A DNA stretch of 64,000 nt from an uncultured Oscillospiraceae bacterium (lineage in GTDB: Bacteria > Bacillota > Clostridia > Oscillospirales > Oscillospiraceae): the NCBI GenBank assembly GCA_947588605.1, contig CANPYK010000001.1:1-64000 (forward strand), given 5' to 3'. How positions within the stretch are numbered: the stretch's first letter is position 1; every line of letters begins with the position of its first letter. Shown piece by piece: positions 6,513-64,000 of this stretch. The position numbers were made by a program, and so were the translations under genes. The notes under the pieces were generated by a model. The model was given only the letters and a program-made list of their open reading frames with translations, had not been told where the DNA came from and searched no databases.

Positions 6513-6516
6513 CCTT

Positions 6517-7923
6517 GTGAAGGAAATATTCAAGCACAGCCTCATCGTCCGGGGCCTTACCGCCGCGGCGGGGTGGATCGACCGCCAGTGGCGGAAAAGC
6601 TGGCTGGCGCTGGCCCTCACCGGCTCCGGCGTCGCGCGCGGGGGGTCGCTGGCGGGAAAAATAGGCCACGGCGTCCACGAGGGGCTGTGGCGGGTCTTCC
6701 ACGCCCTGCGGCTGGACAGGCTCTCCGAGGGGTCCGTTTTTACGAAGGAATTTTTCTGGCTGGGGCTGACGGTCTTCCTGGCCCCGCTCCTGCCCACCAT
6801 GGCGGTGCTGGCGCTGGCGCTGATCGCCATGGGCTCCGTGGCCCTGGGCTACGCCCGGGACCGGGGGAGAAGGGCGATGTACTCCCCGGTGAAGAAGTGG
6901 TTCGTGGCCTACGGCCTGGTGTACGCCGTCTCGGCGGCCTTTTCGCTGGCGCTGGAGAGCACGGCGAAGGCCGCGCTGATGACCGTGACCTTCGCCCTTT
7001 TCGCCGTGGCGATGCTGGACACCCACCGGACCTGCGCCGACGGAAAGCGCCTTGTCACCCTGCTGGTGGCCGGCGGGACGCTGGTGGCGGGATACGGCAT
7101 CCTCCAAGCGGTCCTGGGAGGCGAGACTTCGGCCAAGTGGATCGACGAGAGGCTTTTCAGCGACATTTCCACGCGGGTGTACTCCACCCTGGACAACCCC
7201 AACATACTTTCGGAGTATCTTCTGCTCATCATCCCCCTGGGCGTGGCGCTGGCGGTCAACGCCAGGACCGCCAACGGGCGCATTGCGGCGCTCTTCGCCA
7301 CGGCGGTGATGGTGGGGTGCATGTTCCTCACCTGGTCCCGGGCCGGATGGGTGGGGCTGCTGGCGGAGCTGGCCCTTTTCCTGGTGCTGATGGACAGGCG
7401 GTTCCTTCTGCCGGGGCTCCTGTGCGCGGCGGTGGGGGTGGCGGCCCTGCCCCAGGGGATCCTGGACAGGCTCCTGAGCGTGGGGTCCATGGCCGACAGC
7501 TCGGCCTACTACCGGTTCAGCATCTGGACGGGCACCATGCGGATGCTCCGGGATTGCTGGCTGGCCGGGGTAGGCCCCGGGGCCTTCTCCGTGATCTACC
7601 CCCAGTATTCCCTGAACGCCGCTATTGCCAAGCACGCCCACAACCTCTATTTCCAACTGATGTGCGACTCCGGTGTTCTGGGCATCCTCACCTTCGGCGG
7701 GCTTGTGGGGTCGGCCCTGAGGGCCGCCGTGGGGGCGATCTCCCGCGGGGCGGAGAAGGAGCGGCGCGTCCTGCTCCTGGCCCTGCTCTCCGGCGTGGCC
7801 GGGTTCCTGCTCCAGTCCGTGGCGGAGTACAGCTTTTATAATTACCGGGTCATGCTGGTATTTTTCATCGTCATCGGCCTCATCGGGGCCCTGTCGGCAA
7901 GGGAGACGGAGGGAACGGCATGA
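6517..7923 (+). CDS. O-antigen ligase/polymerase-like membrane protein
   Basis: Predicted multi-span membrane enzyme of the Wzy/WaaL type that joins or polymerises lipid-linked glycans outside the membrane. The 468-residue protein carries features usual for the family: TWSRAGWVGLL in a membrane segment near residue 270 and the external-loop region GVGPGAFS...KHAHNLYFQL near residues 350-380, whose His residues are normally conserved. Its GTG start lies 4 bases after the murJ stop, and its stop overlaps the next start in ATGA, so it is translationally coupled. The exact polymer is unknown; CsaB downstream suggests a secondary cell-wall polysaccharide. Confidence 0.8.
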   Translation: MKEIFKHSLIVRGLTAAAGWIDRQWRKSWLALALTGSGVARGGSLAGKIGHGVHEGLWRVFHALRLDRLSEGSVFTKEFFWLGLTVFLAPLLPTMAVLALALIAMGSVALGYARDRGRRAMYSPVKKWFVAYGLVYAVSAAFSLALESTAKAALMTVTFALFAVAMLDTHRTCADGKRLVTLLVAGGTLVAGYGILQAVLGGETSAKWIDERLFSDISTRVYSTLDNPNILSEYLLLIIPLGVALAVNARTANGRIAALFATAVMVGCMFLTWSRAGWVGLLAELALFLVLMDRRFLLPGLLCAAVGVAALPQGILDRLLSVGSMADSSAYYRFSIWTGTMRMLRDCWLAGVGPGAFSVIYPQYSLNAAIAKHAHNLYFQLMCDSGVLGILTFGGLVGSALRAAVGAISRGAEKERRVLLLALLSGVAGFLLQSVAEYSFYNYRVMLVFFIVIGLIGALSARETEGTA

Positions 7924-21908: not shown

Positions 21909-21933
21909 GCGCCCCTCCCTCCGGGAGGGGCGC
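21909..21933 (+). terminator. GC-rich hairpin after icd
   Basis: Perfect 11-bp stem GCGCCCCTCCC/GGGAGGGGCGC with a 3-base loop, 11 bases after the stop codon. No proper T-run follows, so it may work together with the AT-rich palindrome directly downstream. Confidence 0.55.
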
Positions 21934-21987
21934 ATACTTTACTATACTAAAATGTTCCACGTGGAACATTTTAGTATAGTAAAGTAT
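21934..21987. promoter_or_regulatory. 54-bp perfect palindrome with parS-like core
   Basis: Two 27-base arms meet at 21960/21961 with no mismatch and no spacer. The central 16 bases at 21953-21968 are TGTTCCACGTGGAACA, one base from the Firmicutes ParB-binding consensus TGTTNCACGTGAAACA and fully symmetric. The outer arms are AT-rich (TACTTTACTATACTAAAA type). Best reading is a chromosomal parS site; a terminator or other repressor site is possible. Confidence 0.65.
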
Positions 21988-23014
21988 ACCGCACGGTCCC
22001 GCACGATGGATACCGCTTCGGCATCCGACCTTCGCTTCCCCCCTGCCCCCCTCCTATGAGGAGGGGGCGAAAAGAGGTTTGCGCCGCTTTGCGGCGCATT
22101 CTTTGATTTGCCCGCGCGGCGGGGACGGGGGATGTGGGACGGGCGGGTTTGGAACCCGCCCCTACAGTTTCAAATCACGTTCATTCTACGCCGTACGGGC
22201 CGCCGCCCACGGCGGCCCACGCTGCGGGGTTCGGGTTGCCCCCGATGAACGCCGTAGGGGCCGCCGTCCCCGGCGGCCCGCGTCTCGATAACCTCCCATA
22301 TCGGTTGAATGGGATAACCTTCCATATCCCCTGTAGGGGCGGGTTCCAAACCCGCCCGTGCCACGTGGCGGGACGGGAACGGTTTCGATAAAACGGTAAA
22401 CGTCAGCCAACGAAAAAGGGCCGCCGTGGGCGGCGGCCCGTACGGCGTTGATTGGAACGGGTCAAGTATCGAAGGGCGGGTCGCCCGGGAGGGCGACCCC
22501 TACGGCAGTGTTTATACCCTGCGGGTCGTCGGGACCGCCCTATTATCCCACGCTCGCTACCCCCCTGCCCCCTCCTACGAGGAGGGGGCTTAAAAAGGTT
22601 GCGCCGCTTTGCGGCGCAATTTTTTATAAACGCGGCGCGAAGCGCCGCAACCTTTTTTTAGCCCCTCCCAGGTCGGGGACAGCCGCGAAGCGGCAGGGGT
22701 GGTGACGCGGCGCAAGCCGCGTTCCTTTCCTCCTCGCGTGTGCGGATCGCAGCACCACCCCGGCGCTTCGCGCCACCCCGACCTTGGAGGGGCAAAAGAG
22801 GTTGCGATAACGGAACAGTTCCGAAAAAACGCACCCGCCTCCGTTACGGAGCCCCCTCCTCGTAGGAGGGAGGCAGGGGGGTAGCGAGCGTGGGTTGACA
22901 GACCGGTTCCGAGAAAACAGAAAAACAGTGGTCAACGAGGGGCGTGTTGCCGACTACTCAAATTTTTTGTTTTTTTACGGCACATTTTGTTTTGCCGGGG
23001 GATATTACGGGTGA
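21988..23014. repeat. GC-rich intergenic mosaic repeat cluster
   Basis: About 1 kb without a convincing gene. It holds several copies of the repeats seen elsewhere: GGGTTTGGAACCCGCCCC-type hairpins at about 22138-22167 and 22332-22359; GGGCCGCC...GGCGGCCC modules at about 22195, 22250 and 22420; a GGGTCGCCC module near 22483; the GCCCCCTCCTCGTAGGAGG hairpin at about 22035, 22555 and 22850; and TTGCGCCGC/GCGGCGCAA stems near 22080 and 22605. Small frames here cross these hairpins and are rejected. Confidence 0.8.
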
Positions 23015-23041
23015 ATGGCCATTCGGAAGGGAAGTGAGACG

Positions 23042-24085
23042 GTGACGCGGGAGGAATTTGGGCGGGCGGTGGAGCTGTATGGCGACATGGTCTACCGGGT
23101 GGCGTTCAGCGCCCTGGCGGCGGCGCTGGCGGTGTGCGTGCTTACCGGCACGGCCCTGGCGGTGAGTCCGGAGCTGCGGGACCTCCTGTGGGGCGGCTTT
23201 GAGCCGGTGGTCCAGCGCTTCGAGCCAGATGTGGAGAACACCCAGGTCCTCAACGGCATCGAGGCGCGGCTGACCTCGGCCATGACGGACGGATTTCTGC
23301 TCAAGGCCCACGTGGAGCTGCGGGATACGACGGACGCGGACAGGGTGAGGAGCGCTTATGAGGCCCGTGACACCGATGAGCAGGGGAATTTCGGCTGCTT
23401 TACGAGTATGGAGATCCTGAGTCCCTCGGGAGGCGTCGGGGACGCCTTTGAGGGCGATGTGATGGTGAGCGGAGGAGCCCGGGTCGTGGGCTTTGACGAT
23501 GAGGCCGGCGTGCTGACGGTGGAGCTCACCCTCCGGTCCTTCAATCCCCCGGAGGGGGCGGACCGGGTGGCCGTTTTCATCTCCGAGGACATTTTGGAGG
23601 TCCTGAAGGACAGCCGGTACCAGCTTGCGAAGTTCGGCGTCACCCCCGAGGACCTTGAGGAGCTTTCGAAGACCCCGGAAGAAAGCGAGCCCACGTCCGG
23701 GGAGTCCGGCATCACTGTCGGGGAGCCCTCAAAGACGCCGGAGTGGTTTGTGCCATCCGACGCCAAGACGCTGTCCGGCTGGGGGCTCACCGCCGATATC
23801 GAAGTGCTTCCCACGCGCAGTGCCCGGGCCGGCGACCTGGAGGTGGTCCTCTCCGACATCGGACTTGCCGTCCGGGGGAGCGCGGAGGACGCCGGGACCG
23901 TCCACGGCGGGGCGGTCATCCTCACCTTCTCGGACGGGTCCGTCTCCGATGCCGGCCTTCTCCTGGGCGAGCAGAACGGCGGCGTGGGGGACCGGGCGGT
24001 GCGGAACATCGACTTCTCCGCCCCCATCGACGCTGACACGGTGGTCTCCGTCACCGTGGGGGACCGGACGCTGGTGTTTGCGTAA
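23042..24085 (+). pseudogene. Probable sigma-factor N-terminus fused to anti-sigma/DUF4179-type C-terminal region
   Basis: A 347-codon frame. The first 22 or so residues (TREEFGRAVELYGDMVYRVAF) read like the start of an ECF sigma factor, then the frame passes directly into a membrane helix (ALAAALAVCVLTGTALAV) and an external domain beginning SPELRDLLWGGFEPVVQRF, which looks like the anti-sigma partner usually encoded next. The simplest explanation is an in-frame deletion joining two adjacent genes. The external part carries a Ser/Thr/Pro/Glu-rich segment near residues 215-250. GTG 23042 follows AAGGGAAG by about 8 bases. It may still make a membrane protein, but not a working sigma/anti-sigma pair. 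Confidence 0.6.
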
Positions 24086-24101
24086 ACGCAACCAAAAAAA
24101 T

Positions 24102-24137
24102 GCCCCCGTGGAAAGTACTTGTGCCTTCCACGGGGGC
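24102..24137. terminator. Bidirectional intrinsic terminator
   Basis: 12-bp perfect stem GCCCCCGTGGAA/TTCCACGGGGGC; an A-run at 24094-24100 serves the minus strand and CTTTGGTTTT serves the plus strand. It lies between convergent genes. Confidence 0.8.
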
Positions 24138-24156
24138 GCTTTGGTTTTATAGTTGC

Positions 24157-24393
24157 TTACTTCTTGAAAATGCCCTTGACCTTGTCCATGACGCCGCCGG
24201 CGGCGGAGCCCAGCTCGTCTAAGGAGATCTTGGCCTTGACGCCGTCCACGATCTTGGAGACGGCGTCATCGGGGAGGTCCACGCCGACCAGCTTTTCTAC
24301 GGTCTTGACGGGCTCGTCCTTGAACTCCTGGGCGAGCTTGCCGTCGGACTTGACCTTGGAGACGACCTCCTCGATCTTTGCCTTGATGTCCAT
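24157..24393 (-). CDS. Small helical protein of unknown function
   Basis: Not assigned. The 78-residue, Lys/Asp/Val-rich protein is probably all helical and has no signal peptide. The middle (EFKDEPVKTVEKLVGVDLP) resembles segments seen in small clostridial proteins and, distantly, NHLP-type leader peptides; the end, SAAGGVMDKVKGIFKK, has a double Gly before a basic amphipathic tail. No peptide-modifying enzyme or exporter is nearby, so a leader role is unsupported. GGAGGAGG precedes the start at the end of the upstream yegP-like gene, with which it is co-transcribed. Confidence 0.7.
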   Translation of the reverse strand: MDIKAKIEEVVSKVKSDGKLAQEFKDEPVKTVEKLVGVDLPDDAVSKIVDGVKAKISLDELGSAAGGVMDKVKGIFKK

Positions 24394-27023: not shown

Positions 27024-27595
27024 CAAAAATGTATGGGCCGCCGTCCCCGGCGGCCCGCCTGATGATTATTGACACATACCGAACAACGGCTTTCCCGTCA
27101 CGCAACGTGCCACGGGCGGGTTTGGAACCCGCCCCTACAGGAAATATGGAAGGCTATCCCATTCAACCGACATCGGAGGTCATCGAAACGCGGGCCGCCA
27201 AGAGAGGCGGCCCCTACGGCGGGGATTGAGCGCAATCTGGAAAATGTAGGGGCGGGTTCCAAACCCGCCCGTCCCTCGTCCCCCGTCCTTCGTCCCCCGT
27301 CCCCGCCGCGCGGGCAAATTAAAAACCGCGGCGAAGCCGCAACCTTTTTAAGCCCCCTCCTCGTAGGCGGGGGGCAGGGGGGTAGCGAGCGTTGGTCGAT
27401 AGAGCGCTATCGTCCAACCTTCGATCCCTCAGTCTCGCTTCGCTCGACAGATCCCCTTACGAAGGGGAGCCTTTTCGGCGCTTTGCGCCGCCTTTTATAA
27501 AAAATTGCGCCGCAGTGCGGCGCAAACCTTTTTGGTAGGGGCGGGTTCTAAACCCGCCCGTGCCTTGTCTCCCATCAATTTGGTTTTCTGTATTT
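27024..27595. repeat. GC-rich intergenic mosaic repeat cluster
   Basis: No gene seen. Contains GGGCCGCC/GGCGGCCC modules near 27032 and 27190, three GGGTTYNRAACCCGCCC-type hairpins at about 27112-27142, 27246-27271 and 27535-27563, the GCCCCCTCCTCGTAGG block near 27352, and a TTGCGCCGC-type stem with following CCTTTTT near 27496-27535. Confidence 0.8.
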
Positions 27596-39939: not shown

Positions 39940-40265
39940 CCGGGGGTGGGGGACCGCTCTGTCATCTCACGTTCGCTGCCCCCCTGCCCCCCTCCTACGA
40001 GGAGGGGGCGAAAAAGGATGCGGCTTCGCCGCGGATTTTATTATCCGCTGCGGCGGGGACGAGGGGACGAGGGGACGGGCGGGTTTAGAACCCGCCCCTA
40101 CAGTTTAAATTGCGTTCAATCAACGCCGTAGGGGCCGCCGCTGCTGGCGGCCCGCGTTGCGGGACGGAGTGGTTCCGATAAAACGGCACCCGCCCCCGTC
40201 TCGGAGCCCCCTCCTCGTAGGAGGGGGGCAGGGGGGAAGCGAGCGTTGGATGTGAGAGAGATATC
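39940..40265. repeat. GC-rich intergenic mosaic repeat cluster
   Basis: No gene seen. Holds the GCCCCCTCCTACGAGGAGG hairpin in both orientations (about 39972-40008 and 40205-40240), a GGGTTTAGAACCCGCCCC hairpin at about 40078-40098, and a GTAGGGGCCGCC...GGCGGCCC module at about 40128-40155. Confidence 0.8.
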
Positions 40266-60850: not shown

Positions 60851-61705
60851 AGAAATGTTGTGGAAAAGTTTCCGAATCATCGTACCCGCTCCGTCTCAGA
60901 GCCCTCCCCGCAGGGCGGGGAGGGGGAGGGGTGAGGTGGGAGCCGAAGGGCTTAGGGCAGTTGCGATGAACGGACCTACCTCATCCGGCGCCTGCGGGCA
61001 CCACCTTCCCCGCCCTGCGGGGAAGGCTAGGACGGGGACTCGAATACCCCGCCGCTGCGGCGGCACCCCTTTTTCCGAAAAAGGGGTCGGGGGAATATGG
61101 TTGCGGCGCTACGCGCCGCGTTTATAAAAAATTGCGCCGCATCGCGGCGCAAACCTTTTTAAGCCCCCTCCTCGTAGGAGGGGGGCAGGGGGGGAAGCGA
61201 AGGTGGGATGACAGAGCGGTATCGTTGAACCACAGGTTATAAACACCGCCGTAGGGGTCGCCGTCCCCGGCGACCCGCCCATCGACCATTGACACGTCCC
61301 GAACAACGTCGCATGGGCCGCATCTCCGCGCTAAGAGCCGCCGCTGCGCGGCGGTTGCGCTCCGAAACGCGCCTGCGGGCGCAGGCCCACGGCGGCCCAT
61401 GCCTCCGATAACCGATATGTACCGTTTTATCGGAACCGCGCCCGTCCCGCAACCGCGCACGGGCGGGTTTGGAACCCGCCCCTACAGGAGAAGTGGAAGG
61501 TAATCCCATAAAAACGACATGGGAGGTTATCGCAACGCGGGTCGCCGAGGACGGCGACCCCTACGGCGTTTATCGGAGACAATCTAAGCCCTGCAACGTG
61601 GGCCAACCTGGGCGGCGGCCCGTACGGCGGTGATGGAAGGTCATTTAGAAACTGTAGGGGCGGGTTCCAAACCCGCCCGTGCCCCGTCCCCCGCAGGGCA
61701 TCCCC
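60851..61705. repeat. GC-rich intergenic mosaic repeat cluster, second copy of the 1-416 repeat
   Basis: No gene seen. 60885-61208 matches 76-416 in order and sequence with scattered differences. Then come GTAGGGGTCGCC...GGCGACCC (61250-61278), a nested hairpin module at 61316-61385 that is the inverse of 56118-56183, two GGGTTTGGAACCCGCCC hairpins (61461-61487 and 61653-61680), and GGGTCGCC/GGCGACCC near 61537-61562. Confidence 0.8.
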
Positions 61706-63707: not shown

Positions 63708-63900
63708 CTGGCGAAAAATGGCTGCGCCATTTTTCTGCCAAAAGGAACGTGCGGAAAACCTCCGGCGAAAGGTCTGCGGACCTTTCGCCGGAGGTTTTCC
63801 TGCTGTTTTGCTGCGCGCACGGCCCCTATGGGGCCGCACACTCCGCAAAACAAAAGGTATTTTTTCCGACGTACATGCCGCCGGAAAAAATGGCTCGATG
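63708..63900 (+). repeat. Constant-scaffold, variable-stem hairpin element, copy B
   Basis: Same order as copy A: CTGGC; stem 1 GAAAAATGGC/GCCATTTTTC (63713-63735); TGCCAAAAGGAACGTGC; stem 2, 22 bp, at 63753-63774 and 63779-63800 around TGCG; TGCTG; stem 3 TTTTGC (63806-63811)/GCAAAA (63845-63850) enclosing CGGCCCC/GGGGCCG; 50-base tail 63851-63900, one mismatch to copy A. Confidence 0.8.
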
Positions 63901-64000
63901 GGAGGGAATAAGGTTGCGGCGCTTTGCGCCGCCTTGATAAAAAATGCGCCGCAAAGCGGCGCATCCTTTTTAAGCCCCCTCCTCGTAGGAGGGGGGCAGG
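63901..64000. repeat. GC-rich mosaic repeat, cut by window end
   Basis: Contains the GGTTGCGGCGCTTTGCGCCGCC and TGCGCCGC/GCGGCGCA stems, CCTTTTT, and the GCCCCCTCCTCGTAGGAGGG block also seen at about 372, 22860, 27355, 40207 and 61165. Confidence 0.78.

Follow-up and report, generated by a model that had tools for sequence, protein, structure and literature searches.

The open reading frame at positions 23042 to 24085 is most likely the scar of a 518-bp in-frame deletion across an ECF sigma/anti-sigma operon and marks the loss of a signalling pathway in this species of uncultured Oscillospiraceae. It lies on the forward strand of the window (the whole stretch of 64,000 nucleotides that was analysed) and comprises 347 codons from a GTG at 23042 to the stop codon ending at 24085, with an in-frame ATG also present at 23015. 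The two halves of the frame match two adjacent genes in relatives, in agreement with a preliminary description of this DNA that had recognised a chimera of a sigma factor start and an anti-sigma factor. Residues 1-26 resemble separate sigma genes with 85% identity in G016 and G021, the two closest genomes carrying the locus, and residues from about 18 or 22 to 346 resemble separate anti-sigma genes with 81% identity in G016 and 73% in G021. The check proposed in that description, searching both halves for separate partners, thus returned a sigma gene for one half and an anti-sigma gene for the other. Among 60 genomes searched (the species' own, G000, and 59 relatives), a single match covering both halves was found only in G000. 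We assign a probability of about 0.82 to the reading that the 518-bp loss fused the operon, that the pathway is dead and that the remnant frame, now weakly expressed or silent, is being lost.

Architecture of the fused frame

The fused frame retains the start of a sigma factor and the membrane helix and outer part of an anti-sigma factor. A ribosome-binding site, GGAAGTGAG, precedes the GTG at 23030 to 23038 on the forward strand and is identical in G016 and G021. The sigma gene remnant (23042 to 23112, forward strand) consists of codons 1 to about 24 and covers only the start of region 2, as delimited by alignment with G016 and G021. It runs into the anti-sigma transmembrane helix (23108 to 23164, forward strand), assigned by hydropathy and alignment conservation, which ends in a possible signal-peptidase site, TALA/V, where the slash marks the putative cleavage. 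The anti-sigma ectodomain follows at 23165 to 24082 on the forward strand in an unbroken frame with zero stops. Terminator-like hairpins on both strands lie at 24102 to 24139, between the fused gene and the convergent next gene. Comparison of the fused protein with Pfam and NCBIfam returned zero families even at E ≤ 10; the Sigma70 region 2 and region 4 domains, both present in the G021 orthologue, are absent from it. A structure model built from 3 sequences had a poor mean pLDDT of 45.7, and a search for a solved structural relative found none, returning one chance-like match with an E-value of 0.21.

The deletion removed the parts of both proteins that would be expected to interact. Sigma residues from about 25 to 154 are gone, which takes away region 4 entirely and region 2 for the most part (limits taken from domain matches) and leaves about 24 of 154 residues. 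On the anti-sigma side the first 42 or so residues, the cytoplasmic part, are missing relative to relatives, as the preliminary description had foreseen for a product without its cytoplasmic sigma-binding part. Seven of the 10 intact anti-sigma proteins were aligned; of their 35 invariant residues, 17 sit in this lost N-terminus, which is conserved even in G010, whose ectodomain differs. By analogy with known anti-sigma factors, this N-terminus would bind the sigma factor. The fused protein consequently possesses one hallmark of ECF anti-sigma factors, a transmembrane helix followed by an external domain, and lacks the other, a cytoplasmic N-terminal sigma-binding part. The positive charges ahead of the membrane helix are also gone, the net charge of this segment being -1 in the fused protein and +3 in the intact one. 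Of the seven aligned intact relatives, six have TALAV at the putative signal-peptidase site directly after the helix and one has TLAAS.

The ancestral operon and the deletion junction

The two-gene operon is intact in close relatives. In G016 and G021, uncultured Oscillospiraceae genomes with the sample names 'Lapin', a 154-residue sigma factor is followed by a membrane anti-sigma factor of 370 or 384 residues, the two genes overlapping by 4 bp. The G021 protein is a complete ECF sigma factor, matching Sigma70_r2 at E = 1e-12 and Sigma70_r4_2 at E = 6.7e-15. The window shares 92-94% DNA identity with both genomes across three neighbouring metabolic genes, which from their protein sequences we take to encode citrate synthase, aconitase and isocitrate dehydrogenase. 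The downstream genes also match in G021, making the flanks collinear on both sides; the G016 contig stops just beyond the operon. The intact operon predicted for sister genomes is hence present at the collinear locus in both.

Within the genus, an intact pair is found in 10 of the 33 other genomes, nine having an anti-sigma gene matched by the fused-frame query and a confirmed sigma gene, and the tenth being G010, whose sigma factor shares 75% identity with the G021 protein. The anti-sigma gene directly follows its sigma gene with a 4-bp overlap in all ten. G022 carries only more distant pairs (sigma identity about 39%), and the remaining 22 genomes gave no match at E = 1e-4 with the fused frame, rather than the full-length sigma, as query. 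In G010 the orthologous sigma factor and anti-sigma N-terminus are joined to a shorter and apparently unrelated ectodomain (L039, anti-sigma gene at about 6514-7365), a possible case of sensor-domain swapping. A conserved fused family, which the preliminary description had named as the finding that would count against its interpretation, was sought in all 34 genomes of the genus, and no fused homologue was found in the 33 others. The idea that the fusion is the old state and the relatives' two-gene form derived is scarcely credible: nothing was found in its favour, and it is opposed by the two-gene form with its uniform overlap in ten other genomes, by the absence of the fusion from all 33 and by the complete ECF sigma factor of the relatives.

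Base-by-base alignment places the junction at 23110 to 23117, in a short microhomology. The window tracks the relatives' sigma gene to 23112 and their anti-sigma gene from 23110, and exactly 518 bp are missing relative to both G016 and G021. An in-frame deletion had been proposed before and is borne out; its proposed size of about 1 kb is not. The fused frame is continuous because the anti-sigma gene lies in a +2 frame, set in the relatives by the 4-bp overlap of its start with the sigma stop, and 518 leaves a remainder of 2 on division by 3. The endpoints in G021 form a perfect 8-bp direct repeat, and the probability that a junction placed at random between the two genes shows at least 8 bp of homology is 0.0006. 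In G016 only 3 bp of exact homology are present, so an ancestral repeat can only be presumed. Illegitimate recombination or replication slippage at such a short direct repeat probably removed the 518 bp, and the alignment shows the reading frame continuing from the roughly 24 remaining sigma codons into the anti-sigma transmembrane helix.

The fusion is known from a single draft assembly of this species in 68 contigs, which raises the question of a false join during assembly or binning in a genome that truly has the intact operon. We give this a slim chance. Short-read assemblers need overlaps longer than about 8 bp, and the homology at the junction is at most about 8 bp; moreover, collinearity with G021 extends to either side of the locus and the join is exactly in frame. 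The genome is 99.84% complete, and a search with the G021 sigma factor found neither an orthologous sigma gene elsewhere in it nor a stray copy of the deleted part. An assembly error is therefore unlikely.

The repeat cluster at 21930 to 22950 is real and has related copies elsewhere in the window, and the preliminary description had suggested it as a possible cause of recombination. This suggestion is unsupported, since the cluster lies at neither breakpoint, the two breakpoint neighbourhoods have no 12-mer in common in G016 or G021, and similar repeats occur near the intact operon of G016. The breakpoints themselves fall in coding sequence without another match in the window. The cluster belongs to a family of GC-rich intergenic repeats with palindromic parts, also present in relatives, whose further copies in the window are at 302-431, 27092-27388, 39950-40252, 61099-61693 and 63899-64000.

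Promoter, paralogues and constraint on the remnant

An ECF-type autoregulatory promoter precedes the fused frame and appears to have been orphaned by the loss of its sigma factor. The element at 22978 to 23006 on the forward strand (CGGCACATTTT...GATATT) is conserved in the upstream regions of the 10 intact sigma orthologues with the consensus CGG(A/C)ACA.TT, 11-13 bases, GATATT, and its position and form suggest an ECF promoter. A strict version of the motif has one site per genome in all 11 carriers of the locus, always upstream of the operon, and this site is the sole copy in the own genome; across the 60-genome set there is one further match each in G005, G024 and G042. A looser version applied to 5 genomes added one site, in G016. 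Judged by the strict motif, the regulon of the lost sigma factor was its own operon alone. A scan of 22500 to 24300 for sigma-70-type promoters found none. The single operon-linked motif, combined with this result, suggests that the operon was transcribed mainly by its own sigma factor, an activator that the fused frame would now be without. Between the promoter and the ribosome-binding site, just downstream of the -10 element, lies an inverted repeat, GAATGGCCATTC (23013 to 23024), of the form GAATGG(0-1 base)CCATTC; it is found in all ten intact orthologues with 0-1 central base and might act as a hairpin in the 5' mRNA or as an operator.

With the ECF promoter left without its sigma factor and no cytoplasmic domain to hold one, the pathway would be off, a state deduced from the missing sigma and cytoplasmic anti-sigma parts. 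Any product would be a membrane-anchored or secreted ectodomain unable to signal. With 23 matches to Sigma70_r4_2 at E = 0.001, the own genome is not poor in sigma factors. We considered whether it has a second copy of the pathway and rejected this on two counts. The nearest sigma paralogues are only 48% (at C4:25270), 45% and 42% identical, each adjoins its own candidate anti-sigma gene, and their upstream stretches are by eye unlike the promoter at 22978-23006. A weak anti-sigma match elsewhere (L002, E = 0.05) proved on inspection not to be an anti-sigma factor.

The remnant shows no sign of decay. We counted changes in the anti-sigma part on the branches of a three-taxon tree by simple counting with 11 ambiguous positions set aside, and obtained synonymous and nonsynonymous changes of 16 and 19 for G000, 18 and 48 for G016, and 28 and 92 for G021. 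The nonsynonymous share on the G000 branch, 19/35, compares with 48/66 and 92/120 on the other two. The rate ratio on the G000 branch is about 0.42. Its nonsynonymous share is below the neutral expectation of 713/963 (binomial P = 0.009) and differs from that of the pooled intact relatives with P = 0.014 and from that of G016 alone with P = 0.08. Between G016 and G021 the ectodomain has a rate ratio of about 1.0, indicating fast evolution even with the pathway intact. The deletion is thus either recent enough, or the ectodomain constrained enough, for decay not to be apparent; part of the G000 branch may predate the deletion. In the G016 anti-sigma gene (L075), the columns matching residues of about 90-160 of the fused frame have a dS against G000 of about 0.48, compared with about 0.1 elsewhere, which suggests a probable recombination within the ectodomain and limits the branch comparison.

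It is this absence of decay that argues most strongly against a simple dead remnant, and the low nonsynonymous share could mean that the remnant is still used. The fused protein might have been kept for a new use, as a headless receptor binding an outside ligand or as a secreted soluble ectodomain, and we see a small but real chance of this. The helix and TALA/V are retained, with the signal-peptidase-like site now near the N-terminus, and the frame has no stops. Yet the sole recognisable promoter needs the deleted sigma factor or a cross-acting one, the positive charges before the helix have been lost, the fusion is kept in no second species and the deletion may simply be young. A more specific form, in which selection maintains the ectodomain as a ligand sink or decoy with a cytoplasmic sigma-derived helix and transcription by a paralogous ECF sigma factor, has a chance a shade smaller still. 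Loss of the pathway by deletion, with a remnant that is weakly expressed or silent, remains our preferred reading.

Relation to known systems and meaning

In layout the intact operon resembles SigV-RsiV of Bacillus subtilis, in which, as the published account describes, signal peptidase cuts the anti-sigma factor just after its membrane helix and frees the sigma factor (PMC6066255). As in that account (PMC6066255), the relatives' sigma factor is paired with a single-pass anti-sigma factor comprising a cytoplasmic N-terminus, a helix and an external sensing domain, an ECF-type promoter lies ahead of the operon, and a possible signal-peptidase site is found close behind the helix; unlike SigV-RsiV, the locus in the own genome has lost the body of the sigma factor together with the cytoplasmic portion of the anti-sigma factor. 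In Bacillus anthracis, a single-residue change at the cleavage site of RsiP is described as blocking activation (PMC8844934). There, too, one lineage's pathway is disabled and a sister lineage's works (PMC8844934), but here a 518-bp deletion takes out both interacting parts.

The intact anti-sigma factor is not classed as a DUF4179 member, because its scores lie below the Pfam gathering cut-off (E = 0.15 in G016 and 0.019 in G030); the fused protein has no match to this family. Compared by profile with anti-sigma proteins of the DUF4179 type from the genus (four above the cut-off and one below it, from G013), the anti-sigma family aligned over 77 C-terminal columns only, with a probability of 74. 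ECF41 sigma factors carry a fused regulatory domain and retain the sigma factor. The fused frame likewise joins sigma and regulatory parts in a single protein, but keeps only about 24 of 154 sigma residues. A literature search of titles and abstract openings found no natural sigma/anti-sigma deletion fusion of this kind.

The best reading is ordinary genome evolution, the loss of one ECF signalling pathway that is either recent or has left a partly constrained remnant. The locus is a clean example of how a single short deletion at very few homologous bases can abolish a whole signalling pathway, and close relatives still show the two-gene arrangement. For automatic annotation it illustrates a trap: an open frame that looks well formed, and both of whose halves can be recognised, may be a deletion scar. 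Should the remnant prove to be expressed, the locus would serve as a natural test of anti-sigma ectodomain function in the absence of the sigma factor.
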